Source of the DNA: Pseudoxanthomonas sp. Root65
Lineage (GTDB): Bacteria > Pseudomonadota > Gammaproteobacteria > Xanthomonadales > Xanthomonadaceae
Length of the DNA stretch: 64,000 nt
NCBI RefSeq assembly: GCF_001427635.1
Contig: NZ_LMHA01000001.1
Location: 1,205,501-1,269,500, forward strand
Direction: 5' to 3'
Shown piece after piece: positions 12,445 to 42,595 of this stretch. Position 1 is the stretch's first letter. Every line of letters begins with the position of its first letter. A model generated the notes under the pieces. It was given only the letters and a program-made list of their open reading frames with translations, was not told where the DNA came from and did not search any database. The translations under genes were made by a program, and so were the position numbers.

Positions 12445-12509
12445 GGAGTTACGCGCTTACCGCCTAAGCCGAGCCACGAAATAGTCTCGGCTTAAACGAA
12501 TTGTTAGCC
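12445..12509 (-). other. attC-like site of the DUF3644 cassette
   Basis: On the minus strand it reads GGCTAACAATTCGTTTAAGC (R'' and L'') and, after a short loop, GGCTCGGCTTAGGCG (L'). The arms TTAAGCCGAG/CTCGGCTTA pair. The terminal R' box, expected to be GTTAGCC, is degenerate (GTAAGCG), so the right crossover point looks lost. The ORF stop TAA lies within the R'' box. Confidence 0.7.
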
Positions 12510-13481
12510 CTTAGCTACGTAGTGCTTATCCAGCACGTTGAAAACAGCTTGGCTATACCACTCCTGCTTGACGCTCTTTGGATTATCTGGGTCGAGCTTC
12601 TTGACGTGGCAGTAGCGCTTATCTGCTTTTAGCGGATTGCGTATGTCATGGTATTTCTTGTTCTGTACGAAGTTCGAGTAACGGGCAGTACACGCAGCTG
12701 TCAGCGTCGCATAATTGAAGGGGTACTTGTCTTTCAAGTGCTCTTCTGTGAGCTGCACTTTCGGAGCGTTTGGGTCATTTGTCACTTGCACCTTGATTGC
12801 ATCATCGGCCTTTGATTTAAGGAACTTAAGTTCTACGTTCACTGACACTGCATAGTCAGCGTTTGGGTCGTTTGCAGCCTCAAGCGAGGATATAAAGGAC
12901 GCAACGTTCTTCTCTTCTTTGCTCAGGAGAAACGCATCGGCAGGTTGCTGATGGGCAACGAAAGCAAGAGGCATTAGGTAGAAGTTGTACTGCGAGAAGC
13001 CGACACCGAACCATGAATTTGCGGCTTTCGCATAGTTCTTAACAGAAGCACTTCCCACCTCCTGAAGCCTGATAGCAAAGACGCCGCTCTTGTTGTAGAA
13101 ATGAACGGAAGAGTCCCTGATCTCGCACAGAGCAATGATGTTTTTATGTGCGGCATCGGCCAGCGCCTTCTTCTCGGTCATTTTCTTGGCCAAGTAATCG
13201 AGGCTGTGCGTAAAGGGATTCCCTGACCCGGTCATTTTCACCTTGGCATGCTTGTAAGGCTTGCCATTGGGCCTCAGGCGTTTCTCGGTTACGTAGAGCG
13301 AACGGATCGCGTTGTTGTTGTCTCTGAGCCATTTCGCTTTCAGGAGAAGTTCCCACGCATTGATGGCTAGAATGGAAAATGTTTCTTCCCGGTACTTAAA
13401 GTCGGGTTTGTTATAAATCTCAATCGCCGAAATCATTGCTGCGATGCTCTTGTCCACTAGTTCTTGCGATCGAGCTTTCAT
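12504..13481 (-). CDS. DUF3644 HEPN-superfamily protein
   Basis: A 325-residue protein. The N-terminal block YNKPDFKYREETFSILAI followed by NAWELLLKAKWL is the DUF3644 signature. Within the helical bundle lies IRDSSVH, an R-X4-H motif (Arg122, His127) as in HEPN ribonucleases. HEPN/DUF3644 proteins recur in defence islands and toxin systems, but no antitoxin partner is seen next to it. The gene is far less G+C-rich than its neighbours (many AAA, AAT and TTT codons), consistent with recent transfer. It fills an integron cassette by itself, so it probably depends on an external promoter or its own weak one. Nuclease activity is inferred, not shown. Confidence 0.75.
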   Translation of the reverse strand: MKARSQELVDKSIAAMISAIEIYNKPDFKYREETFSILAINAWELLLKAKWLRDNNNAIRSLYVTEKRLRPNGKPYKHAKVKMTGSGNPFTHSLDYLAKKMTEKKALADAAHKNIIALCEIRDSSVHFYNKSGVFAIRLQEVGSASVKNYAKAANSWFGVGFSQYNFYLMPLAFVAHQQPADAFLLSKEEKNVASFISSLEAANDPNADYAVSVNVELKFLKSKADDAIKVQVTNDPNAPKVQLTEEHLKDKYPFNYATLTAACTARYSNFVQNKKYHDIRNPLKADKRYCHVKKLDPDNPKSVKQEWYSQAVFNVLDKHYVAKG

Positions 13482-13484
13482 AAG

Positions 13485-13559
13485 GCCTAACGCCGAGTAG
13501 ACCCCATACCCGGGCCGGTAGCGCGGATGTTCGTGTTCAGGCTAAATGACGTCAAGGCC
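13485..13559 (-). other. 75-bp attC-like site upstream of the DUF3644 cassette
   Basis: Ends (minus strand) in GGCGTTAGGC, a good GTTRRRY core box directly before the cassette ORF. It starts with GCCTTGACG, which can pair with the other end. About 70% identical by eye to the 75-bp site at 22205-22279, in the same orientation. Confidence 0.55.
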
Positions 13560-17483: not shown

Positions 17484-18769
17484 TCCAGCGGATGCGATGC
17501 ACCGCGCTGCTGAGCGTCGGCCTGCTGCTGGCCGCCTGCGGCAGCGACGAGATGCCGGTGGCCAGCGAGACCGTGGCGAAGGGACCCGTGACGATCCATG
17601 TGCGCGGCGAAGGCGAACTGCGTTCGGCCAAGCCCACGCCGTTGAACGTGCCCGGCAAGAACTGGGCGCAGCGACAGGTCGAATGGATGCTGCCGGAAGG
17701 CAGCCTGGTGAAGAAGGGCGACGTGCTGGCCCGCTTCGTCTCGCCCGAGGGCGAGCAGCAGCTGGCGCAGGCGATGATCGACCTGCAGCGCAACGCGCTG
17801 GCGCGCGCGGCCAAGGAGAGCGGGCTGGATTCGGCCCAGGGCCGGGTGGAAGTGGACCTGTCGCGGGTGGCCGTGCAGCTGGGCATCGCCCAGCGCTACG
17901 CCGATGCCGACCTCAGCACGGTGGCGCGCAACCAGGTGCTGGATGCGATCGAGGACAAGGAATACCTGCAAGTGCGGCAGGGCGTGCTGCAATGGCAGCG
18001 CGACCAGTCCGGCGTGCGCGGCGGCGCCGAACTGGCGGTGCTGGACGCGCAGCGCGCCACCTTCGACATGAACGCGAAAACGCGCAAGGACGACCTGGAA
18101 GCGCTGGAACTGCGCGCCCCCAACGACGGCGTGCTGCTGCTGGCGGCCAACTGGTCGGGCGACAAGCCCACGGTCGGCGCCAACCTGCGCGCGGGCTTCG
18201 AGTTCGGCAGCCTGCCGGACACCTCGGCGATGGAAGTGGAGATCGACCTGCCGCAGATCGAGGCGCAGGGCGTGCAGGCCGGCGATGCGGTGGTGCTGCA
18301 TCCGCTGGGCCGCCCGGACCAGCGCATCGACAGCACGCTCTCGTGGGTGGCCAGCGCCGCCAAGGTGCGCAACCGCGAAAGCCCGGTGAAGTTCCTGTCG
18401 ATGCGCGCGCCGATTCCGGCCGACGCGATCGAGCGCTACCGGCTGATCCCGGGCCAGCGCTTCGCCGCCTCGGTGGTGCTGCTCGATGCCAAGGACGCGA
18501 TGGCGGTACCGAACGTGGCCATCGAACAGCGCGACGACCGCCACTGGGTGCAGGTGAAGCAGGGCAACGACTACGTGGCGCGCGAAGTGAAGCTCGGCGT
18601 GCGCGGCACCGCGCGTTCGCAGGTGCTGTCGGGCCTCAAGCCCGGCGACCAGGTGCGGCTGTCGCAGGTCGAGGTGCCCGCGCCCGGTGACGACGGCAAC
18701 GCGAAGGACAAGGACGCGACCGACGGCGAAGACGCCGCCACCGATGACGCAGAAGGAAAGACCGCATGA
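17480..18769 (+). CDS. Periplasmic adaptor 3 (lipoprotein, MFP family)
   Basis: A 429-residue adaptor with a lipoprotein signal (LLLAACGS), so anchored in the inner membrane by lipid. It has GSLVKKGDVLARF, a coiled coil, APNDGVLLLAANWSGD, then a membrane-proximal domain (LKPGDQVRLSQ) absent from the two shorter adaptors. The C-terminal 30 residues are very acidic (DGNAKDKDATDGED). It has a GGAGG ribosome-binding site and ATGA junctions on both sides, so it is made with the other operon members. Confidence 0.87.
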   Translation: MIQRMRCTALLSVGLLLAACGSDEMPVASETVAKGPVTIHVRGEGELRSAKPTPLNVPGKNWAQRQVEWMLPEGSLVKKGDVLARFVSPEGEQQLAQAMIDLQRNALARAAKESGLDSAQGRVEVDLSRVAVQLGIAQRYADADLSTVARNQVLDAIEDKEYLQVRQGVLQWQRDQSGVRGGAELAVLDAQRATFDMNAKTRKDDLEALELRAPNDGVLLLAANWSGDKPTVGANLRAGFEFGSLPDTSAMEVEIDLPQIEAQGVQAGDAVVLHPLGRPDQRIDSTLSWVASAAKVRNRESPVKFLSMRAPIPADAIERYRLIPGQRFAASVVLLDAKDAMAVPNVAIEQRDDRHWVQVKQGNDYVAREVKLGVRGTARSQVLSGLKPGDQVRLSQVEVPAPGDDGNAKDKDATDGEDAATDDAEGKTA

Positions 18770-20016
18770 CCGGCCTGTTCAACCGCCTGCCCACGGTCTG
18801 GCGCGAAGCGGTGGAGGAACTGTGGCGGCGCCGCCTGCGCACGCTGCTGACGCTGCTGGGCATGATCTTCGGCGTGGGCGCCATCGTGGCGATGCAGGCG
18901 GTGGGCGAAGGCAGCCGGCGCGAGGCGCTGCGGCTGGTCGAAGGCCTGGGCCTGCACAACCTGATCGCCGAGGCCAAGGCGCAGGACGAGGACACGCTGA
19001 AGGAAACCCGCGAGCGCAGCCTGGGCCTGACCGTCGCCGATGCGGATGCGGCACTGAGCGTGGTGCCCGGCGCGGAACGCCACGCCGCCGAGAAGCAGGT
19101 GCGCACGCACACGGTGTTCAGCGATACCGGCCGCAGCGATGCGCAGGCCAGCGGCGTCAGCGCCACCTGGTTTGAACTGTCCTCGCTGAAGATCGCCCAG
19201 GGTCGCGCGTTCACCGCCGACGATGAGGCCGCGCTGGCGGCGGTGGCGGTGCTGGGCCATCAGGCGGCGGCCGACCTGTTTCCGAAAGGCGATGCGGTGG
19301 GCGGATTGATCAAGGTCAATCATGTGTGGCTGGAAGTGATCGGCGTGCTGGCCGACCGCGACTTGGGCCAGGACGATTTCGAAGGCGTGCAGCTGGGCTC
19401 GGAGAGCAACCGCATCTACGCGCCGCTGGCCAGCGTGCGCGCGCGCTTCCGCTTCCAGCCGCAGGAAGACGAGGTGGACCGCTTCCTGCTGCGCCTCGAC
19501 GATCCGCAGCGCCTGGCCGCCGGGGCCGGCGTGCTGTCGGCGGTGCTGGACCAGCGCCACGCCGGTATGGCGGACTACCAGTTGATCGTGCCGCAGCAGC
19601 TGTTCCAGCAGCACCAGCAGACGCAGCGCATCTTTCAGATCGTGATGGGCGCGATCGCCGGCGTCAGCCTGCTGGTCGGCGGCATCGGCATCATGAACAT
19701 CATGCTGGCCAACGTGCTGGAGCGGCGCCGCGAGATCGGCCTGCTGCGTGCGCTCGGCGCGCGGCGGCGGGACGTGATCGCGCAGTTCCTGCGCGAGGCC
19801 ACGGTCATCTGCATCACCGGCGCACTGCTGGGCCTGGTGTTCGGCGGCGTACTGGCCTACCTGATCGCCACCTTCGCCGGCTGGCAGGTCGCGTGGGCGC
19901 CGCTGCCGATCCTGCTGTCGGCCGGCTTCTGCGCCGTGGTCGGCCTGGGCTTCGGCGTGTACCCCGCACGGCAGGCCGCGCAGCTGGACCCGATCGCGGC
20001 GTTGCGGCATGACTGA
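18766..20016 (+). CDS. MacB/FtsX-type ABC permease
   Basis: A 416-residue permease with the four-helix MacB topology. TM1 is at about residues 26-50 (LLTLLGMIFGVGAIVAM). A large periplasmic domain follows (about 55-285), then three TM helices, including SLLVGGIGIMNIMLANVLER and the family ending DPIAALRHD. MacB-type permeases do not move substrate through the membrane but transmit ATP-driven motion to adaptor and channel. Here it must work with three adaptors. No outer-membrane factor is encoded nearby. Confidence 0.88.
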   Translation: MTGLFNRLPTVWREAVEELWRRRLRTLLTLLGMIFGVGAIVAMQAVGEGSRREALRLVEGLGLHNLIAEAKAQDEDTLKETRERSLGLTVADADAALSVVPGAERHAAEKQVRTHTVFSDTGRSDAQASGVSATWFELSSLKIAQGRAFTADDEAALAAVAVLGHQAAADLFPKGDAVGGLIKVNHVWLEVIGVLADRDLGQDDFEGVQLGSESNRIYAPLASVRARFRFQPQEDEVDRFLLRLDDPQRLAAGAGVLSAVLDQRHAGMADYQLIVPQQLFQQHQQTQRIFQIVMGAIAGVSLLVGGIGIMNIMLANVLERRREIGLLRALGARRRDVIAQFLREATVICITGALLGLVFGGVLAYLIATFAGWQVAWAPLPILLSAGFCAVVGLGFGVYPARQAAQLDPIAALRHD

Positions 20017-20170: not shown

Positions 20171-20324
20171 TGTAGGATGGGTTGAGCCGCAGGCGATACC
20201 CATTACGTGCAGTCTTGGAAGCCCAGCAGGAACGAGGTCTCCAGGATTTCGCCGTTCCAATATGCATTCCCACGAATGGGAACGAAGGTGATGGGTATCG
20301 CCTACGGCTCAACCTATCCTACGC
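20171..20324. repeat. Inverted pair of GTAGGATGGG repeats
   Basis: GTAGGATGGGTTGAGCCGCA (20172) and its near complement ending TCAACCTATCCTAC (about 20308-20321) flank about 80 bp. The right arm runs into the 3' end of the HEPN ORF and supplies its stop codon. Confidence 0.7.
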
Positions 20325-20931
20325 GCACGTGAAGTTTCTGTAGCTCACCAATTGTTGTTCGAAGTGCGCGTCGGTACCGGAACAGGTCGCCAAACGATAG
20401 TGAAACCTCATGGCCTGAGGCGGCGTCTGTAACGCCTGCTGATTCAAGTATGGAAACTGTTGAATCATTGAGGCGGCCACCGTTATGGACGAGCGCGTTG
20501 CGAAGAGCACACAGTTCAAGCATCCCGTTGGTCGCCCAATCGTACTTTGCGTCAATTCTTGCCTTTGCCCACTCAACTTTGTTCGTCAGGTAGTTGGGTG
20601 GCTGCACGCCAGCATTGAAAATTAGCTGCCCCAAGCACTCGTCCGCAAGAACGGCGAGATTGACAAAAAGCATCCTAACAATGTTCTCGGACAACCTCTG
20701 AAAGATCTCGTTGTAGTCCTTGCCATCAAGGTTAATTGAACCATCCTTGAACTGTTTGACCGGGAGATTTGAAGTAAATCCTGGGTCAGATCTGTTCCAG
20801 CCCTCCGCTGCATTGAGGCTCGTGACTAGAGTCGTCAGATTTCCGAATTTTATAGAGTCTGCGATGTGCAATGAGTGGGCGATCCCATAGACAGTTTGAG
20901 ACCACTTCAACATTTCGTCTTCAATGTCCAC
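20314..20931 (-). CDS. HEPN-domain protein in integron cassette
   Basis: A 205-residue helical protein with CALRNALVHNGG: Arg144-X4-His149, the HEPN ribonuclease-type motif. The flanking pattern of a long helix, then LRN.LVHNGG, is typical of the HEPN/AbiV/RiboL-PSP group. The start is GTG at 20931, with an in-frame ATG six codons later as alternative. Base composition is low in G+C compared with neighbours. It lies 28 bp past the attC of the Mrr-like cassette. No attC follows it; instead the last residues (VRVG) and stop codon fall inside a repeat element, so the native C-terminus may have been replaced. Confidence 0.65.
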   Translation of the reverse strand: MDIEDEMLKWSQTVYGIAHSLHIADSIKFGNLTTLVTSLNAAEGWNRSDPGFTSNLPVKQFKDGSINLDGKDYNEIFQRLSENIVRMLFVNLAVLADECLGQLIFNAGVQPPNYLTNKVEWAKARIDAKYDWATNGMLELCALRNALVHNGGRLNDSTVSILESAGVTDAASGHEVSLSFGDLFRYRRALRTTIGELQKLHVRVG

Positions 20932-20958
20932 CGAGTCGCCTTGAAGGTTGAATAAGAG

Positions 20959-21018
20959 GTCTAACGCCTGAGTTAAGACGCACCGCGAAGTAGCGTCGGC
21001 TTGAATGAAATGTCAGGG
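20959..21018 (-). other. attC site between the two cassettes
   Basis: A 60-bp site of classic layout. On the minus strand, R'' CCCTGAC, TTCATTCAAGCCGACGC, loop CTTCGCGG, GTCTTAACTCAGGC, then R' GTTAGAC matching GTTRRRY. The stop TGA of the Mrr-like ORF lies in R''. Orientation agrees with both cassette ORFs. Confidence 0.82.
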
Positions 21019-22188
21019 CCCAAGAAGCCTTTTGGGGGAGTATGGGTGGGCGTCAATGTCAGACCTCATTTCGGCAGGAAACATTGAAGTCCGGTGGTCA
21101 CCCAATGAATCAGGGGAAAACTCAAACTTGTTCCAACGTCCGCCCGCAGAAATATTTACCGCGTAACCAGCGAAGGGACCAAGATGCTGGTCGAAGTCAA
21201 CGTAAACATGTGGCTCAGAATGATAGTTGTCCCCTAGCTCATCGATGGCGATGATGCTCTCGTAAGGGACGAGAGCCATCACATCAAGCCACGCTTGATT
21301 CTCTTCCGGGAGAGTGCTCCAGAAGTCAAATATCTTTCTTCTAACCTCAAATCTGTCGCTTCTGTCGCTCCAATAGTCATGGTGGTCAGGTGCGTCGTTG
21401 AAAGACAGCGCGGCGTCCCACTGGAGCGGGTCTCTTGAGAGGTAGGCGAAGTAGCGATTAAATTGGAAAATCAGTCCGCGTGCGTGGAACTCGCGGAATC
21501 GCGCTGTTAGCCATCGTGGGCGTTCTTTGTGGTCTTCAGGGGGGTCCGGGTAGCTATCTTCACTTGCATCGCGCAGGAGTAGGTTGGCATGTGTCTTTCC
21601 GCTAAGGGAGCGATGCGCCTTACGCTTTGTGGCAAGTAGCTGGCCCAGTACGCTTTTCCGGCTTCTTCGGCGGATGCTAAGCGAGATGCCAAAGTATGCA
21701 AAAAGAAGATTGTCGTTTTTTGGGAGGAAGAGTTGGTCTTCAAGCTCCGCTTTTCCCCAGAGATGCCACTCCTGAATCCCGAGACTCTCACACTTCTGTC
21801 GAAACTCATCTCTCGACTTTTTTGAGAAATCACAAGCCGCGACAAAGATCAATCCATGCAGGGACTCGGAGTCTTTAAGGCTCACTTGGTCAAGATAAGT
21901 AGATAACTTCTTCGGTGAGATGATCTTTTCTCTCTTGCATTGAATTAGCCACAGGCGATCTGCCTGCTGCGGTGCAATCTCGTCCTCTGTTTCATTGTCT
22001 GCAGATTCTTCAACGGCAACAATTTCGTAGCCGCGAGCATCAAATCCATCATCGCTACCGGCACGACCAGTTGCCTCAAGTCTTCGCCAGACCTTGAAGT
22101 CGTAAGCGAGTTGGCGAACTAGATCTTCAAAGCGCTTTGGCTCCAGATCCTCGAAGTGAATTGGGCCGACCGTTCTTGAAGTAGCCAT
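21013..22188 (-). CDS. Mrr-like restriction endonuclease family protein
   Basis: A 391-residue protein. FEDLVRQLAYDF opens an Mrr-type PD-(D/E)XK nuclease domain. GSDDGFDARG (catalytic Asp near 46-50) and LIQCKRE (Q-x-K near 83-85) supply the active site. The remaining 250 or so residues form a separate domain rich in Trp and Asp that I do not recognise and that may sense modified DNA or another trigger. The chosen start MATSRTVGPIHFED at 22188 excludes upstream codons that read through the 75-bp recombination-like site. Low G+C, cassette-bounded, and followed by a HEPN gene, so a defence role is likely but inferred. Confidence 0.75.
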   Translation of the reverse strand: MATSRTVGPIHFEDLEPKRFEDLVRQLAYDFKVWRRLEATGRAGSDDGFDARGYEIVAVEESADNETEDEIAPQQADRLWLIQCKREKIISPKKLSTYLDQVSLKDSESLHGLIFVAACDFSKKSRDEFRQKCESLGIQEWHLWGKAELEDQLFLPKNDNLLFAYFGISLSIRRRSRKSVLGQLLATKRKAHRSLSGKTHANLLLRDASEDSYPDPPEDHKERPRWLTARFREFHARGLIFQFNRYFAYLSRDPLQWDAALSFNDAPDHHDYWSDRSDRFEVRRKIFDFWSTLPEENQAWLDVMALVPYESIIAIDELGDNYHSEPHVYVDFDQHLGPFAGYAVNISAGGRWNKFEFSPDSLGDHRTSMFPAEMRSDIDAHPYSPKRLLGP

Positions 22189-22204
22189 TCTGTTCGGTCT
22201 TGGG

Positions 22205-22279
22205 CCCTGACGCCCAGTAGACCCCATCCCCGTGGTGGTAACACGAATGTTCGAGTTTCGCCCAGCACGCGTCAAGGCA
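22205..22279 (-). other. 75-bp attC-like site upstream of the Mrr cassette
   Basis: Same length and about 70% identity by eye to 13485-13559, sharing GTAGACCCCAT and ATGTTCG blocks and GTCAAGGC at the far end (plus strand). The core box is GTCAGGG, one base off GTTRRRY. Confidence 0.5.
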
Positions 22280-22392: not shown

Positions 22393-23235
22393 TCAATCCC
22401 CCACCCCAATCTCCACCGCCGTCCCGCTCACCCGCACTCCCTCGCTTACATCGACCGGCACCTCCACCCGCAACACACTCGGCCGCCCGAGATCGTGCCC
22501 CTGGTGGATGGTGAACCTGCGGTCGTCGGTCAACCGGTCCTGCGATGCCAGATACGCACCCAGCGCGGCGGCCGCGGCGCCGGTGGCCGGATCTTCCACC
22601 ACGCCGCCGGGCGGGAAGGGATTGCGTGCGTGCAGGGTGTGCGCGTCTTCGCGCCACACCAGGTTGATGGTGGTCCAGCCGCGTGCGGCCATCAGCGCGG
22701 CGAGCGCATCGAAGTCGTAGTGCAGGTCGGCGAGACGCGCGCGCGAGGCGGCGGCGATGACCGGATGCCATGCGCCCGCATACGCCAGCGCGGGCGGCAG
22801 TGCGGGATCGAGATCGTCGTGGCGCCAACCGAGCGTCGCGAGCACTGCATCGAGATCGGCGGACGACAACGCATCGACGCGTGGCGCGACGCTGGTCAGC
22901 GTGGCGGTGAAACCGGCATCGATGGTCACCCACACGGGTCCGGCCTGCGTGTGCAGCAGCACATCGCCGGGGCCATGCGCATGTGCCCGGGCGACCATCG
23001 ACGCGATGGTCGCGTGCCCGCAGAAATTCACTTCGGCCAGTGGACTGAAGTAGCGCACATCGAGATCGCCGTCCGTGCGCGGCGACAGGAACGCGGTTTC
23101 CGAATAGCCCACCTCGGCGGCGATGCGCTGCATGGCATCGGCCGACAGGCCACGCGCATCCAGCACCACGCCGGCGGGATTGCCGCCCTGCGGGTCGGTG
23201 GTGAAGGCGCTGTAGCGCAGCACGGCAGCGGTCAT
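22393..23235 (-). CDS. PhzF family isomerase/epimerase
   Basis: A 280-residue two-lobed protein of the PhzF/DapF-like fold. The N-terminal FTTDPQGGNPAGVVLDA is diagnostic, SETAFLSP carries the usual catalytic-region Glu, and FCGHATI and EDPATGAAAAALGAYL complete the signature. Family members isomerise small acids (DHHA in phenazine synthesis). No phenazine genes are near, so it is one of the many PhzF homologues of unknown substrate. Its ATG overlaps the stop of the YczE-like gene (ATGA), implying co-expression. Confidence 0.87.
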   Translation of the reverse strand: MTAAVLRYSAFTTDPQGGNPAGVVLDARGLSADAMQRIAAEVGYSETAFLSPRTDGDLDVRYFSPLAEVNFCGHATIASMVARAHAHGPGDVLLHTQAGPVWVTIDAGFTATLTSVAPRVDALSSADLDAVLATLGWRHDDLDPALPPALAYAGAWHPVIAAASRARLADLHYDFDALAALMAARGWTTINLVWREDAHTLHARNPFPPGGVVEDPATGAAAAALGAYLASQDRLTDDRRFTIHQGHDLGRPSVLRVEVPVDVSEGVRVSGTAVEIGVGD

Positions 23236-38086: not shown

Positions 38087-38134
38087 ACACAACATTTGGT
38101 GTTGACGCTTCCCGACACCCCCACTATCTTGTGG
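38087..38134 (+). promoter_or_regulatory. Two NrdR-box-like palindromes
   Basis: Box 1 ACACAACATTTGGTGT (38087-38102) and box 2 CCCCACTATCTTGTGG (38119-38134) match the NrdR consensus ACACWATATATWGTGT at 13 and 11 of 16 positions. They start 32 bp apart, about three helical turns, the spacing class seen for NrdR box pairs. They overlap the -35 and -10 of the nrd promoter. Confidence 0.6.
38102..38130 (+). promoter_or_regulatory. Sigma70-type promoter of nrdA
   Basis: TTGACG (38102-38107), a 17-bp spacer, then TATCTT (38125-38130). Transcription would start near 38137, exactly where the 5' strand of riboswitch helix P1 begins. Confidence 0.65.
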
Positions 38135-38136
38135 CC

Positions 38137-38397
38137 GTCGGTTCCGGTGGTGGCTAGCCTCCGGATGAAAAGGGAAGCCGGTGACGCGTTCGCGCCACTC
38201 CGGCACTGCCCCGCAGCGGTAATTGGGAACGACCCCGCCACCAGCACTGAGGCGCCATGCCTTGGGAAGCGGCGGATGTAGGTGGAGCAGGAGTGAGTGG
38301 GGAGAAGTGAGGAGTGAGGAGAAGCCGGACGGGGCTTCCGCTCACTCCTCTTCCCTCACTCCTCGCCCCAAGCCCATGAGTCCGAAGACCTGCCGAC
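38137..38397 (+). promoter_or_regulatory. Cobalamin riboswitch upstream of nrdA
   Basis: All conserved blocks are visible in order: 5' P1 strand GTCGG (38137), AAAAGGGAAGCCGGTG (38168), the B12 box region CACTGCCCCGCAGCGGTAA (38204), CACTGAGG...CCTTGGGAAG (38245-38270) and 3' AGTCCGAAGACCTGCC (38379-38394), followed by the P1 partner CCGAC. The aptamer is about 60-80 nt longer than usual because a GAGTGAG hairpin is inserted before the last block. B12 riboswitches control class Ia nrd operons in some bacteria that also have the B12-dependent class II enzyme. Confidence 0.9.
38290..38365. repeat. GAGTGAG heptamer hairpin, copy 4 (inside riboswitch)
   Basis: GGAGTGAG (38290) ... AGTGAGGAGTGAGG (38306) pair with CTCACTCCTCTTCCCTCACTCC (split over 38341-38362). 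It lies between the GGGAAG block and the AGTCCGAAGACC block of the aptamer, so it extends a peripheral stem. Confidence 0.85.
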
Positions 38398-38522
38398 AGC
38401 CGCGCGATGCACACCGCGCGGTGCCGGCCGCGGATTCTCCGGGGGGAGATGGCTGGCGAAGCAGGGCGCCCGCAGTCCGTCTGCGTGGTCGCGTCTCCTG
38501 CGACGCCGCTTCCCCACTGTGA

Positions 38523-38591: not shown

Positions 38592-41036
38592 GTGACCCAG
38601 ACCGACCCCGTCGTCGCCGACGCCGGCACCACCCCGTCCCAGAAGGACGCGTTCGCCCTGACCCCGCCGCCCACCGCCACTGCGATGAGCGTGACCAAGC
38701 GCAATGGCGGCCGCGAGCCGGTGGACCTCAACAAGATCGTGCGCGCGGTGCAGCGCAACTGCGAAGGCCTGCACGCCATCGACCCGATGCGCGTGGCCAC
38801 GCGCACCATCTCCGGCCTGTACGACGGCGCCAGCACGCGCGAACTGGACGAACTGTCGATCCGCACCGCCGCGCTGCTGACCGGCGAGGAACCCGAATAC
38901 AGCCGCCTGGCCGCACGCCTGCTGGCCGGCTACATCACCAAGGAAGTCACCGGCCAGGAGATCCATGCGTTCTCGCAGTCGGTGACGCGCGGCCACGAGG
39001 TCGGCCTGATCAACGACCGCCTGCTGAACTTCGTGCAGACCAACGCGCGCAAGCTCAACGACGCGCTGGATGCCTCGCTGGACCTGCACTTCGACTACTT
39101 CGGCCTGCGCACGCTGTACGACCGCTACCTGCTGCGCCACCCGCACACCCGCAAGGTGATCGAGACGCCGCAGCAGTTCTTCCTGCGCATCGCCTGCGCG
39201 CTGAGCGAGGACGTGCCGGAAGCGCTGGCGCTGTACCGCCGCATGGGCAATCTGGACTACCTGCCCAGCTCGCCCACGCTGTTCAACAGCGGCACTACGC
39301 ACGAGCAGCTGTCCTCGTGCTTCCTGCTGGATTCGCCGCAGGACACGCTGGAATCGATCTATGCCAAGTACGGCGACATCGCCCAGCTGAGCAAATTCAG
39401 CGGCGGCATCGGCGTGAGCTATACGCGCGTGCGTTCGCGCGGGTCGCTGATCAAGTCCACCAACGGCCACAGCAACGGCATCGTGCCGTGGCTGAAGACG
39501 CTGGATTCCTCGGTCGCGGCGGTCAACCAGGGCGGCAAGCGCAAAGGCGCGGCCTGCGTGTACCTGGAAACCTGGCACGCCGACATCGAGGACTTCCTGG
39601 AGCTGCGCGACAACACCGGCGACGAAGCGCGCCGCACGCACAACCTCAACCTCGCCAACTGGGTGCCGGACCTGTTCATGAAACGCGTCGAAGCGGACCA
39701 GGACTGGTCGCTGTTCGATCCTCGCGTGGTGCCGGAGCTGACCGACCTGTACGGCGCCGCGTTCGAGCTGGCGTATACGCAGGCCGAGACGCAGGGCAAG
39801 GCGATGAAGACCATCTCCGCCCGCAAGCTGTACGGCCGCATGATGCGCACGCTGGCCGAGACCGGCAACGGCTGGATGACGTTCAAGGACAAGTGCAACG
39901 CCGCCAGCAACCAGACCCTGCGCGCCGGCAACGTGATCCACCTGTCGAACCTGTGCACCGAGATCCTCGAGGTCACCTCGGCCGAGGAAACAGCGGTGTG
40001 CAACCTCGGCTCGATCAACCTGGCCCGCCATTTCGACAGCGACCCCGACACCGGCCGCGTCTGGTTCGATTTCGACAAGCTGGCCGAAACCGTCCGTCTG
40101 GCCGTGCGCCAGCTGGATCGCGTGATCGACCTGAACTTCTATCCCATCGAGACCGCGCGCCGCGGCAACCTGCGCTGGCGCCCGGTCGGCCTGGGCTGCA
40201 TGGGCCTGCAGGATGTGTTCTTCAAGCTGCGCCTGCCGTTCGACAGCGCCGAGGCGCGCACGCTGTCGGCGAAGATCGCCGAGACCATCTACTTCCACGC
40301 GCTGGAGACGTCGGTGGAACTGGCGCAGGAACGCGGTCGCCATCCGTCCTTCGCCGACACCCGTGCGGCGAACGGCGAACTGCAGTTCGATGCCTGGAAC
40401 GTGGTGCCGGAAAACGTGGAGCGCTGGGATGCGCTGCGCGCGCGCATCAAGGAACACGGCTTGCGCAACTCACTGCTGATCGCCATCGCGCCGACCGCGA
40501 CCATCGCCTCGATCGCCGGCTGCTACGAATGCGTGGAGCCGCAGGTGTCCAACCTGTTCAAGCGCGAGACGCTGTCGGGCGACTTCCTGCAGGTCAACCG
40601 CTACCTGGTGGACGAACTGAAGAAGCTGGGCCTGTGGACGGCGGAGACGCGCGATGCGATCAAGCTGTCCGAAGGCTCGGTACAGGGCCTGGCGCAGGTG
40701 CCGGACGCGCTGCAGCAGATCTACCGCACGGCGTGGGAAATCCCGATGCGTTCGCTGATCGACATGGCCGCCGGCCGAGGCGCCTTCATCGACCAGTCGG
40801 CCTCGCTCAACCTGTTCATGGAAAGCCCGAACATCGGCGCGATGTCGTCCATGTACATGTACGCGTGGAAACAGGGCATCAAGACCACCTACTACCTGCG
40901 CTCGCGCCCGGCCACCCGCATCGCCAAGACCACGGTCAGCAGCGCAGCGGTCACCGCGCCGCAGCGCGAGTACACGCCGACCGAAGCCATCGCCTGCTCG
41001 CTGGAAAATCCGGAAGCGTGCGAGGCGTGCCAGTAA
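38592..41036 (+). CDS. nrdA: Ribonucleoside-diphosphate reductase, alpha subunit (class Ia)
   Basis: An 814-residue catalytic subunit. The N-terminal ATP cone (VTKRNGGREPVDLNKIVRAV onward, about residues 30-115) senses ATP/dATP. The barrel includes SSCFLLDS, NLCTEILE (active-site Cys and Glu), ETARRGNLRWRPVGLGCMG and the C-terminal redox pair CEACQ. It reduces NDPs to dNDPs with the NrdB radical. The GTG start has GGAGGA 6 bp upstream. An alternative ATG lies 8 codons before it. Control appears double: NrdR boxes at the promoter and a cobalamin riboswitch in the leader. A strong terminator follows, before nrdB. Confidence 0.93.
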   Translation: MTQTDPVVADAGTTPSQKDAFALTPPPTATAMSVTKRNGGREPVDLNKIVRAVQRNCEGLHAIDPMRVATRTISGLYDGASTRELDELSIRTAALLTGEEPEYSRLAARLLAGYITKEVTGQEIHAFSQSVTRGHEVGLINDRLLNFVQTNARKLNDALDASLDLHFDYFGLRTLYDRYLLRHPHTRKVIETPQQFFLRIACALSEDVPEALALYRRMGNLDYLPSSPTLFNSGTTHEQLSSCFLLDSPQDTLESIYAKYGDIAQLSKFSGGIGVSYTRVRSRGSLIKSTNGHSNGIVPWLKTLDSSVAAVNQGGKRKGAACVYLETWHADIEDFLELRDNTGDEARRTHNLNLANWVPDLFMKRVEADQDWSLFDPRVVPELTDLYGAAFELAYTQAETQGKAMKTISARKLYGRMMRTLAETGNGWMTFKDKCNAASNQTLRAGNVIHLSNLCTEILEVTSAEETAVCNLGSINLARHFDSDPDTGRVWFDFDKLAETVRLAVRQLDRVIDLNFYPIETARRGNLRWRPVGLGCMGLQDVFFKLRLPFDSAEARTLSAKIAETIYFHALETSVELAQERGRHPSFADTRAANGELQFDAWNVVPENVERWDALRARIKEHGLRNSLLIAIAPTATIASIAGCYECVEPQVSNLFKRETLSGDFLQVNRYLVDELKKLGLWTAETRDAIKLSEGSVQGLAQVPDALQQIYRTAWEIPMRSLIDMAAGRGAFIDQSASLNLFMESPNIGAMSSMYMYAWKQGIKTTYYLRSRPATRIAKTTVSSAAVTAPQREYTPTEAIACSLENPEACEACQ

Positions 41037-41043
41037 AAAAGAA

Positions 41044-41071
41044 AAGGGGCCGACTTGCAGGTCGGCCCCTT
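41044..41071 (+). terminator. Hairpin terminator after nrdA
   Basis: AAGGGGCCGAC / GTCGGCCCCTT form a perfect 11-bp stem with loop TTGCAG, 8 bp past the nrdA stop. The U-tract after it is weak, so read-through into the next genes is possible. Confidence 0.8.
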
Positions 41072-41226
41072 GGTTGCTTCACCAAAACATCCAAACAGCT
41101 TGAGCGGGATGTCTTTGATCGGCACTTCGGCTAAGAAGTACGGCAACTATAACCTTCTATAGGTGAAATTGCTGCTAGCCGGTCAAAGTTTTAGCTCAAG
41201 CGCTCACTTCATCAGCAGAGGTAGCC

Positions 41227-41475
41227 ATGAGTAAGGGTAGAGATCGCACGGTGTTCCGCCGAGATGACGGAAATTGGGCAAACAAGAGGAATGATTCGGA
41301 TAGAGCTTCCAGCGTTCATTCCACGCAGAAAGCGGCGGAGCAATCAGCCCGCCAAATGCTCGGCAATCAGGGTGGCGGTGAGTTGACCACTAAGGGAGTG
41401 GACGGAAGGATCCGAAGCAAGGACACCATCTCTCCGGGTAACGATCCGAATCCACCGCGAGACCGCGAGCACTAA
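41227..41475 (+). CDS. DUF2188 domain protein
   Basis: An 82-residue hydrophilic protein. FRRDDGNWANKRNDSDRA, then a helix (TQKAAEQSARQMLGN), then GGELTTKGVDGRIRSKDT matches the DUF2188 pattern of a small beta-hairpin/helix unit. Function unknown. It has an AGAGG ribosome-binding site. Its base composition is clearly lower in G+C than nrdA and nrdB, and it splits the nrdA-nrdB pair, so it is probably an insertion. Confidence 0.75.
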   Translation: MSKGRDRTVFRRDDGNWANKRNDSDRASSVHSTQKAAEQSARQMLGNQGGGELTTKGVDGRIRSKDTISPGNDPNPPRDREH

Positions 41476-41575
41476 TAGTAGGGAAGCGATTTGGCACAAG
41501 GACGTGCCGACCTCGCCAAGTCAAACATCAGTCAATCTTCCAATACTTGGAAGAAAACAGAAGAAGATCCAATAC

Positions 41576-42595
41576 ATGTCTGCACAACCAAAACAAATGT
41601 TGCTCGACCCTGGTTTCGAACTGACGTTGCGCCCGATGCGCTATCCGCAGTTCTATGACATGTACCGCGACGCGATCAAGAACACCTGGACGGTGGAGGA
41701 GATCAACTTCCAGATCGACATCACCGACCTGCATGCGAAGATGACGCCGGCCGATCGCCACCTGATCCACCGGCTGGTCGCGTTCTTCGCCACCGGCGAT
41801 TCGATCGTCTCGAACAACCTGGTGCTGAACCTGTACCAGCACCTCAACGCGCCGGAAGCGCGCATGTACCTGTCGCGCCAGCTGTACGAGGAAGCGCTGC
41901 ACGTGCAGTTCTACCTGACCCTGCTGGACAACTACCTGCCCGACCCGTCGGAGCGCTTCAAGGCGTTCGCCGCGGTCGAGAACATCCCCGCGATCAAGAA
42001 GAAGGCCGACTTCTGCTTCAAGTGGATCGACAGCATCCAGGACATGAAGCGGATCGAGACGCGCGACCAGCGCCGCCAGTTCCTGCTCAACCAGATCTGC
42101 TTCGCCGCCTGCATCGAGGGCCTGTTCTTCTTCGCCGCCTTCGCCTACGTGTACTACTTTCGCTCGCGCGGCCTGCTGCCGGGTCTGGCCAGCGGCACCA
42201 ACTGGGTGTTCCGCGACGAGAGCTGCCACATGGAGTTCGCGTTCGAGTGCGTACGCACCGTGCGCGAGGAGGAGCCGGACCTGTTCGACGAACGCATGCA
42301 GCAGCAGGTCTACGACATGCTGGAGGAGGCCATCGAGTGCGAAGTGCAGTTCGCGGAGGATGTGCTGTCCGGCGGCGTGGCCGGCATCTCGACGCGCGAC
42401 ATGCGGCAGTACCTGCAGCACTGCGCCGACCAGCATTTCGCCAAGCTCGGCATGCCCAAGCGCTACGACGTGCGTAATCCGCTGCCTTTCATGGAACTGC
42501 AGGACGTGCAGGAATTGACCAACTTCTTCGAGCGCCGCGTCTCCGCCTACCAGCTGGGCGTGCAGGGCGAAGTGGGCTTCGACCACGCGTTCTGA
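41576..42595 (+). CDS. nrdB: Ribonucleoside-diphosphate reductase, beta subunit (class Ia)
   Basis: A 339-residue radical-generating subunit. EALHVQFY carries the ligand Glu and His and the radical Tyr in the E-x2-H-x3-Y spacing of class Ia R2. CIEGLFFF gives the next Glu, and DESCHMEF the last Glu and His. The di-iron site is therefore complete and the tyrosyl radical residue is kept. The ATG at 41576 is preferred to the frame start at 41504. nrdB follows the terminator and the DUF2188 gene by about 100 bp, so it may have its own promoter. Confidence 0.93.
   Translation: MSAQPKQMLLDPGFELTLRPMRYPQFYDMYRDAIKNTWTVEEINFQIDITDLHAKMTPADRHLIHRLVAFFATGDSIVSNNLVLNLYQHLNAPEARMYLSRQLYEEALHVQFYLTLLDNYLPDPSERFKAFAAVENIPAIKKKADFCFKWIDSIQDMKRIETRDQRRQFLLNQICFAACIEGLFFFAAFAYVYYFRSRGLLPGLASGTNWVFRDESCHMEFAFECVRTVREEEPDLFDERMQQQVYDMLEEAIECEVQFAEDVLSGGVAGISTRDMRQYLQHCADQHFAKLGMPKRYDVRNPLPFMELQDVQELTNFFERRVSAYQLGVQGEVGFDHAF

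Follow-up and report, generated by a model that had tools for sequence, protein, structure and literature searches.

The 64-kb stretch of DNA analysed here (the window; C1:1205501-1269500 of the Pseudoxanthomonas sp. Root65 genome, labelled G000, 3.89 Mb in six contigs) carries two short arrays of gene cassettes, each of which begins at a homologue of attI, the integron attachment site, while the only integron integrase gene (intI) of the genome lies on another contig. We refer to these orphan attI sites as A and B. A first-pass annotation had described, at A, a two-cassette integron-like array with no integrase in the window, in which two low-G+C minus-strand open reading frames (ORFs; 21013-22188 and 20314-20931) are split by a 60-bp attC. 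The ORFs, their arrangement and the lack of an integrase were all borne out, and the attC was called at 20959-21018(-) with an E value of 3.5e-10 by a covariance model that had not been trained on it. The two-cassette array itself stood with one correction: the cassettes and the intervening attC are supported, and the second cassette has no attC of its own at its 3' end. The annotation had also overlooked both the attI that precedes the first cassette and a second platform at 12.4-13.6 kb. The features of the two platforms are as follows.

22206..22278, minus strand: orphan attI A, integrase-less; I-only profile 26.8 bits, E 2e-7 (match 22275-22206); nine syntenic loci in the genus
20965..22210, minus strand: cassette 1 (mrr cassette), 1246 bp; 5' GTCAGGG complementary to its own R'' CCCTGAC at 7/7 bases
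21013..22188, minus strand: Mrr-type PD-(D/E)XK restriction endonuclease-like gene, 391 residues; Pfam Mrr_cat (PF04471) 19.7 bits; motif conserved
20959..21018, minus strand: attC of the mrr cassette, 60 bp, separating the mrr and HEPN cassettes; R2 model 48.2 bits
20314..20964, minus strand: cassette 2 (HEPN cassette), starting at the TT of GTTAGAC; 3' end without attC
20314..20931, minus strand: HEPN-type gene, 205 residues, GTG start, RNALVH motif
13484..13557, minus strand: orphan attI B, the window's other integrase-less platform; I-only profile 25.4 bits, E 5.6e-7 (match 13554-13485); four syntenic loci
12504..13481, minus strand: platform B cassette gene, DUF3644 HEPN family and PADLOC candidate PDC-S19, 325 residues; PF12358 180.4 bits, PDLC04954 454.1 bits
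12455..12508, minus strand: attC of the platform B cassette; R2 model 31.5 bits, E 1e-5; 3' half degenerate

The I-only profile used to call attI was trained on 12 intI-linked sites from this genome and its congeners, with no orphan in the training set. The third-best match in the window scored 2.9 bits and the best among 20 block-shuffled windows 10.9 bits. The window has just two arrays with an attC, and sites A and B lie directly in front of them, one each. The attC model (R2) was trained on 15 other sites, 13 from the genome's own integron and two from one congener, and called no attC in the 64-kb window beyond those at 20959-21018(-) and 12455-12508(-). Of the two hallmarks of a complete integron, an attI before the first cassette is thus present at both A and B (E 2e-7 and 5.6e-7), and an adjacent integron integrase gene is present at neither. 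The single integrase gene, the sole match over the TIGR02249 cut-off, is located at C3:244125-245063 and adjoins a main array of 21 attC. The whole-genome search placed the remaining attC at C1:1530-1535 kb (13, or 14 with a weak one), at C1:1330-1333 kb (five) and, singly, at the two sites in the window.

Site A aligns with the 12 intI-linked attI over ~70 bp. With the attI of the genome's own intI it shares a 5' TTGACGC, a CCC...GGGG segment and a 3' GGCGTTAG. The mrr cassette begins with G|TCAGGG at 22211-22205, the expected attI crossover falling between G 22211 and T 22210, and its R'' box, CCCTGAC, lies at 21018-21012; the mrr stop codon is inside this box, as the first-pass annotation had stated. 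Because the R'' exactly complements the first bases of the cassette, the bounds of cassette 1 can be set at 22210..20965, with a core of GTC, not GTT. The R' box GTTAGAC (20965-20959) marks the start of the HEPN cassette.

To place these sites among congeners, we searched 38 genomes of the genus with a 21-site attI sequence model (12 intI-linked and nine orphan sites, such that orphans were part of the training). This search returned 23 matches of at least 40 bits away from any over-cut-off intI, distributed over 13 of the 38 genomes. These strong orphans are found in 13 of 26 genomes that have an over-cut-off integron integrase and in 0 of 12 that do not (Fisher p 0.0026, uncorrected for relatedness). 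In genomes assembled as a single contig, intI lies more than 1 Mb from the orphan sites, as in G775 (attI at 111260 and 4054440, intI at 2549350) and G235 (attI at 22055, intI at 1650311). Clustering of the orphan sites by upstream flank gave group A with nine loci, group B with four and group C with 11, in addition to four sites in the draft genome G764 and three singletons. Group C sites adjoin a gene that, by eye, encodes a hybrid histidine kinase with a transporter domain. The genes and repeats that frame site A in the window are the following.

22397..23235, minus strand: phzF-like gene, upstream neighbour of A; Pfam PhzC-PhzF 234.7 bits
20172..20322, no strand assigned: REP-like inverted repeat pair at which the HEPN cassette now stops; the genome has related copies at other places
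18766..20016, plus strand: gene for a MacB-like ABC transporter permease, next to A on its far side and lying between A and B; Pfam MacB_PCD and FtsX

The phzF gene is the direct upstream neighbour at six of the nine group A loci (the window's own and those of G302, G768, G775, G235 and G385). When the phzF flank was compared with those of the two nearest congeners, homology was found to run ~190 bp past phzF and to end at most 10 bases from the start of the mrr cassette. The same short attI sequence precedes different cassettes in the congeners, and the first ORFs at the nine A loci encode, by eye, nine different proteins. Other congeners (for example, at L033) have no attI after phzF, and different genes follow it. 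Relatives of the MacB-like permease (at least 95% identity) are located near the sites in G302, G357, G235, G775, G766 and G389. Sites A and B of the window are 8.7 kb apart and flank ABC-transporter genes; the same order, with a spacing of ~9.1 kb, is found in G357 and G302.

Across 29 platforms, the 5' seven bases of the first cassette matched the cassette's own R'' at 6.59 of 7 positions, compared to 5.90 for the R'' of other platforms (0 of 20000 permutations), and at the eight testable A/B sites the values were 6.38 and 5.48 (75 of 20000 permutations); the test excludes four A and two C sites that have no pattern attC within 2.6 kb and one coreless B site. Judged by these ends, insertion took place at the orphan attI. 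In a tree of attI sequences the A and B sites group together as a single lineage, distinct from the intI-linked and C sites (FastTree support 0.996), and most of them carry GAACATCC or a near variant where the intI-linked and C sites carry AATACTC. When five species were compared pairwise at A, identity was higher in the attI than in the intergenic DNA next to it in 10 of 10 pairs (for example, 77.9 versus 66.4%), a comparison that covers five of the nine A sites with pairs that are not independent. In two genomes the C attI is nearly identical to the intI-linked attI of the same genome and unlike that of other species (L120/L176 in G302 and L125/L064 in G763). This near-identity suggests exchange between platforms in these two genomes, and may reflect concerted evolution or gene conversion.

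Orphan attI are not confined to the genus. Family-wide, 39 of 247 genomes have an attI match at E 1e-5 or better. Outside the genus there are 34 attI-positive genomes, in 32 of which intI was located, and 18 genomes contain 23 attI matches away from intI; these counts include G788, an ambiguous case in which ~20 kb and contig ends separate attI and intI. After three matches that start less than 1.5 kb from the end of a contig were left aside, 13 of the 20 distant attI examined, G788 included, had a same-strand attC downstream. Six of the seven without attC have less than 1 kb of downstream DNA, and the seventh (L189) has 3.9 kb with none. IntI fragments adjoin two of the 20, indicating that some orphan sites are former integrons.

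Both cassettes at site A stand directly behind an integrase-less attI, one of three in this genome, and we consider it probable that they were inserted there in trans by the integrase on the other contig. The genome would then have a dispersed integron, in which one integrase likely serves several fixed attI ports. According to this model, a circular cassette would have its folded attC paired with the distant attI by the IntI of the main integron, with crossover at G|TT; the attI promoter would transcribe the first cassette, and a cassette parked at a remote attI would be permanently held where it can be expressed, separate from the main array. Homology to attI, the attC, matched cassette ends, a conserved position with different cassettes and the lack of a nearby integrase can all be demonstrated at the sequence level. 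Loading in trans, expression from the attI promoter and phage defence by the cargo are inferred.

Several observations weigh against this interpretation. No recombination was seen, and half of the intI-positive congeners (13 of 26) have no strong orphan attI. Weak attI matches (17.8-27.7 bits) are found in five of the 12 intI-negative genomes (G211, G286, G761, G765 and G776), and in three of these (G761, G765 and G776) one weak attI adjoins an intI fragment; decayed integrons are, to judge from these fragments, present in the genus. IntI remnants also lie beside three orphan attI, L135 (82 residues, 50%), L182 (24 residues, 71%) and L201 (102 residues, 40%), such that loss of a former cis integrase is real for some sites. 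The synteny of group A is not uniform: one gene intervenes between phzF and the attI in G357, phzF is 2.5 kb upstream in G769 and was not found in G766, and G766 joins the group via a 540-bp flank shared with G357, as does G769 via G766 at 70% identity. The I-only scores of L079, L084 and L133 (11.4, 12.3 and 15.4 bits) are not significant alone, and the assignment of these three to group A therefore rests on synteny. The genome also contains an integrase-less cluster of five attC (L170, C1:1330242-1332773) at which a search for attI detected none; hence, not every integrase-less cluster has an attI, and L170 is an ordinary cluster of attC lacking an integrase (CALIN) in the same genome. Finally, a sigma-70 consensus scan gave no match at A, where intact promoter hexamers were not found. 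The intI-linked attI read TTGACG-N17-AATACT and site A reads TTGACG-N17-GAACAT, a hexamer change that likely corresponds to a weakened cassette promoter. A Pc promoter was considered at A; the consensus scan lends it no support.

A rival account is that every platform started out with an intI, which loaded it in cis and was later deleted, leaving the attI, promoter and a few cassettes as relics. Loss of intI is an accepted route to a CALIN in the accessible text of PMC8618304, and the fragments at L135, L182 and L201 (all in other lineages) and in G761, G765 and G776 fit it. At A, B and C themselves, by contrast, the 1.1-3 kb upstream contain no significant IntI remnant; the one positive among 31 flanks is a site in G764. 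Moreover, in five species the gap between phzF and the attI at A is a mere 104-118 bp, the A first cassettes vary between species (by eye) with no integrase in cis, and strong orphans are restricted to intI-positive genomes. We thus view decay as an unlikely origin for the window's platforms. It is scarcely credible that IntI instead inserted the cassettes off target, at an attG site, or that they landed next to phzF by chance. Off-target integration by integrons is reported (PMC12901181, PMC12444791, both as far as their accessible text goes), but the target here is homologous over ~70 bp to intI-linked attI and its position is conserved across species, whereas attG insertions are described in the available portion of PMC12444791 as widely scattered. 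An attG insertion would also have a target unlike the classical attI and attC, which is not what is found at A or B.

The arrays stand close to, but apart from, several known categories. Tools of the IntegronFinder type would class the window's cassettes as a CALIN or as a single attC lacking an integrase (SALIN), as attC are present with no integron integrase nearby. Both A and B have one attC and would each be a single-attC SALIN (a term from PMC9229058), since a CALIN needs at least two (PMC12444791, from the portions accessible of each). The CALIN definition is silent on attI, while both window arrays start with an attI that is a homologue of the intI-linked site. The CALINs of PMC12444791 in Xanthomonas, which we take to be a related genus, similarly consist of attC clusters at fixed loci away from intI; they are attributed to ancestral integron activity, and no attI is named in the accessible part of that paper. 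With sedentary chromosomal integrons the window arrays share the attI sequence, the 60-bp attC family and the cassette logic, but such integrons have intI and attI in cis, whereas A, B and C lack intI and the genome has one integrase and several dispersed attI. As at attG (Loot et al. 2024, as cited in the available text of PMC12901181 and PMC12444791), cassettes would be inserted by an integrase encoded elsewhere; attG diverges from the classical att sites, however, and at A, B and C the locus is conserved and the site homologous to attI.

Clusters of attC without an integrase are common; the explanations given for them are insertion off target, intI loss and rearrangement (PMC8618304, in its accessible text). 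Conserved orphan attI would provide a testable fourth route that would also explain fixed positions. If IntI acts in trans, one genome could maintain several expression platforms, and a few cassettes could be permanently expressed while the main array shuffles. According to the available text of PMC9024848, IntegronFinder 2.0 does not detect attI outside class 1, and orphan attI ports would be overlooked by it for this reason. A literature search, which covered subscription journals and preprints thinly and is weak evidence of absence, turned up no previous account of orphan or multiple attI.

The cargo in the window, and at some of the sister sites, points to phage defence as one use of these platforms. 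The product of the mrr cassette scores 19.7 bits against Mrr_cat, just under the curated Pfam threshold of 21 bits. The PD-(D/E)XK pattern that the first-pass annotation had read in it (GSDDGFD and QCK) is supported by conservation: among 44 aligned relatives all residues of GSDDGFD...QCK except the serine are invariant or at least 90% conserved, and the protein thus contains the Mrr_cat motif that characterizes Mrr-type (type IV) restriction endonucleases. A protein search found 2268 homologues; among the 120 matches listed, many come from short contigs of metagenomes and some carry the name restriction endonuclease. The family is sparse close to home. In 397 genomes of the order the window's own protein is the one full-length match, accompanied by two weak partial matches, and one of 369 genomes of the class has a match at E 1e-30. 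Relatives were found in six of 72,556 plasmid records, all less than 60% identical, and on seven viral contigs, two of them merely 25% identical.

The 205-residue HEPN-type protein is approximately full length compared with its homologues. Its RNALVH motif, in which the annotation had recognized the R-X4-H pattern of HEPN proteins, has R, N, A, V and H each at least 90% conserved in 40 sequences, R144 and H149 included, in agreement with the R-X4-6-H signature of the superfamily. Two of its 67 homologues are labelled RiboL-PSP-HEPN by a source. In the profile libraries, Mrr matched Mrr_cat below threshold and the 205-residue protein matched nothing in Pfam, PADLOC, NCBIfam or PHROGs and had no credible sequence relative in the PDB; a profile comparison of its family with the DUF3644 protein was not significant. 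The 397 genomes of the order again contain one full-length match, the window's own, and a scan of a species-level collection (84,980 species) revealed one locus, in Stenotrophomonas koreensis. That scan was not exhaustive for this family, as the protein search lists homologues in other named genomes (Dechloromonas, Aromatoleum). No HEPN relatives were found in viral contigs or in the 72,556 plasmid records. In S. koreensis the HEPN gene is a cassette between two attC, with no mrr within 13 kb. The S. koreensis array is interrupted by a transposase gene that, by eye, is of the IS110 type (L011, 1401-2534).

The first-pass annotation had proposed that the Mrr-type nuclease and the HEPN protein form a two-part defence module, and it remains very unlikely that they are a dedicated two-gene system merely carried as cassettes. 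The genes are adjacent and both encode conserved nuclease-type motifs. A two-gene defence system should recur as a pair, and the two were never together in the eight readable loci of relatives (one HEPN, seven mrr), a small test in that the surroundings of most HEPN homologues and of thousands of mrr homologues were unreadable, which counts in favour of the module. The S. koreensis HEPN gene lacks an mrr companion, all seven mrr relatives on viral contigs lack both a HEPN gene and an attC of the same family in their loci, and each gene in the window has its own cassette boundary. On co-occurrence in these few loci, we reject a fixed Mrr-HEPN system. The Mrr-type nuclease, the HEPN RNase-like protein and the DUF3644 HEPN protein are instead predicted to act as separate anti-phage genes. 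They share catalytic motifs with Mrr-type endonucleases and with the HEPN families AbiV, AbiTii and DUF3644, the last of which is counted among HEPN families in PMC3710099 (accessible text). The gene at B and those at two A sites of sister species have Pfam and PADLOC matches as well; the window Mrr is below the Pfam cut-off and the 205-residue HEPN protein has no library match.

Among the first cassettes of A and B sites, three of 13 belong to recognised defence families (AbiV, 111 bits; AbiTii, 39.5 bits; DUF3644, 180 bits), or four of 13 if the sub-threshold Mrr is counted; the other nine have no defence family above threshold. No recognised defence family was found in the 25 cassettes scanned from intI-linked and C arrays. 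These 25 comprise 19 of 22 ORF-bearing first cassettes (L125, L174 and L178 were omitted for doubtful ORFs, and L130 was taken from an internal start) and six of 20 further cassettes of the own intI array, leaving out 14 cassettes of that array and all non-first cassettes of site C. The ORFs of first cassettes at A/B exceed in length those at C and intI-linked sites (Mann-Whitney p 0.0099). Given small sets from related species and sequences that were read before the comparison was chosen, a cargo bias of A/B toward defence is suggestive only. The proposal that defence genes are confined to A/B was not upheld: a weak HEPN_RiboL-PSP match (E 0.0097) occurs in one of a mixed set of nine cassettes (five A/B first cassettes and four from other platforms or positions), and inspection by eye picked out an R-X4-H motif in a C cassette and in a G764 cassette, as well as a PD-(D/E)XK-like pattern in the first C cassette of L130. 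It is a tentative and, on balance, doubtful extension of insertion in trans that throughout this family of bacteria one integrase serves several dispersed attI ports, of which A and B would be a lasting place for the expression of immunity cassettes (Mrr, HEPN, AbiV, AbiTii and DUF3644), held apart from the silent reservoir of the main array and swapped between species as phages change.

The third orphan attI of the genome, at site C (L119, C1:1530492-1535637), leads a run of 13-14 attC cassettes that encode small proteins. One of these proteins, C_3462, is near-identical to the main-array protein I_17547, which suggests exchange. The cassette ORFs of L084, L120, L122, L126, L127, L128, L132 and L137 share the C-terminal tail NNSFKPNPLRGSA or a near variant, likely encoded by the attC into which they run. 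The draft congener G764 (L134-L137, C30) contains five near-identical attI on different contigs, one of them an orphan with an IntI remnant, and these copies may reflect recent multiplication or assembly splitting. In G768, a transposase gene that appears by eye to be of the IS3 type lies inside or beside an attC (L080, from ~2400). Elsewhere in the window, a cobalamin riboswitch is located at 38122-38411 (+) with a score of 96.6 bits, and a further low-G+C stretch (41001-42000, G+C 0.552) has no attC or attI call.

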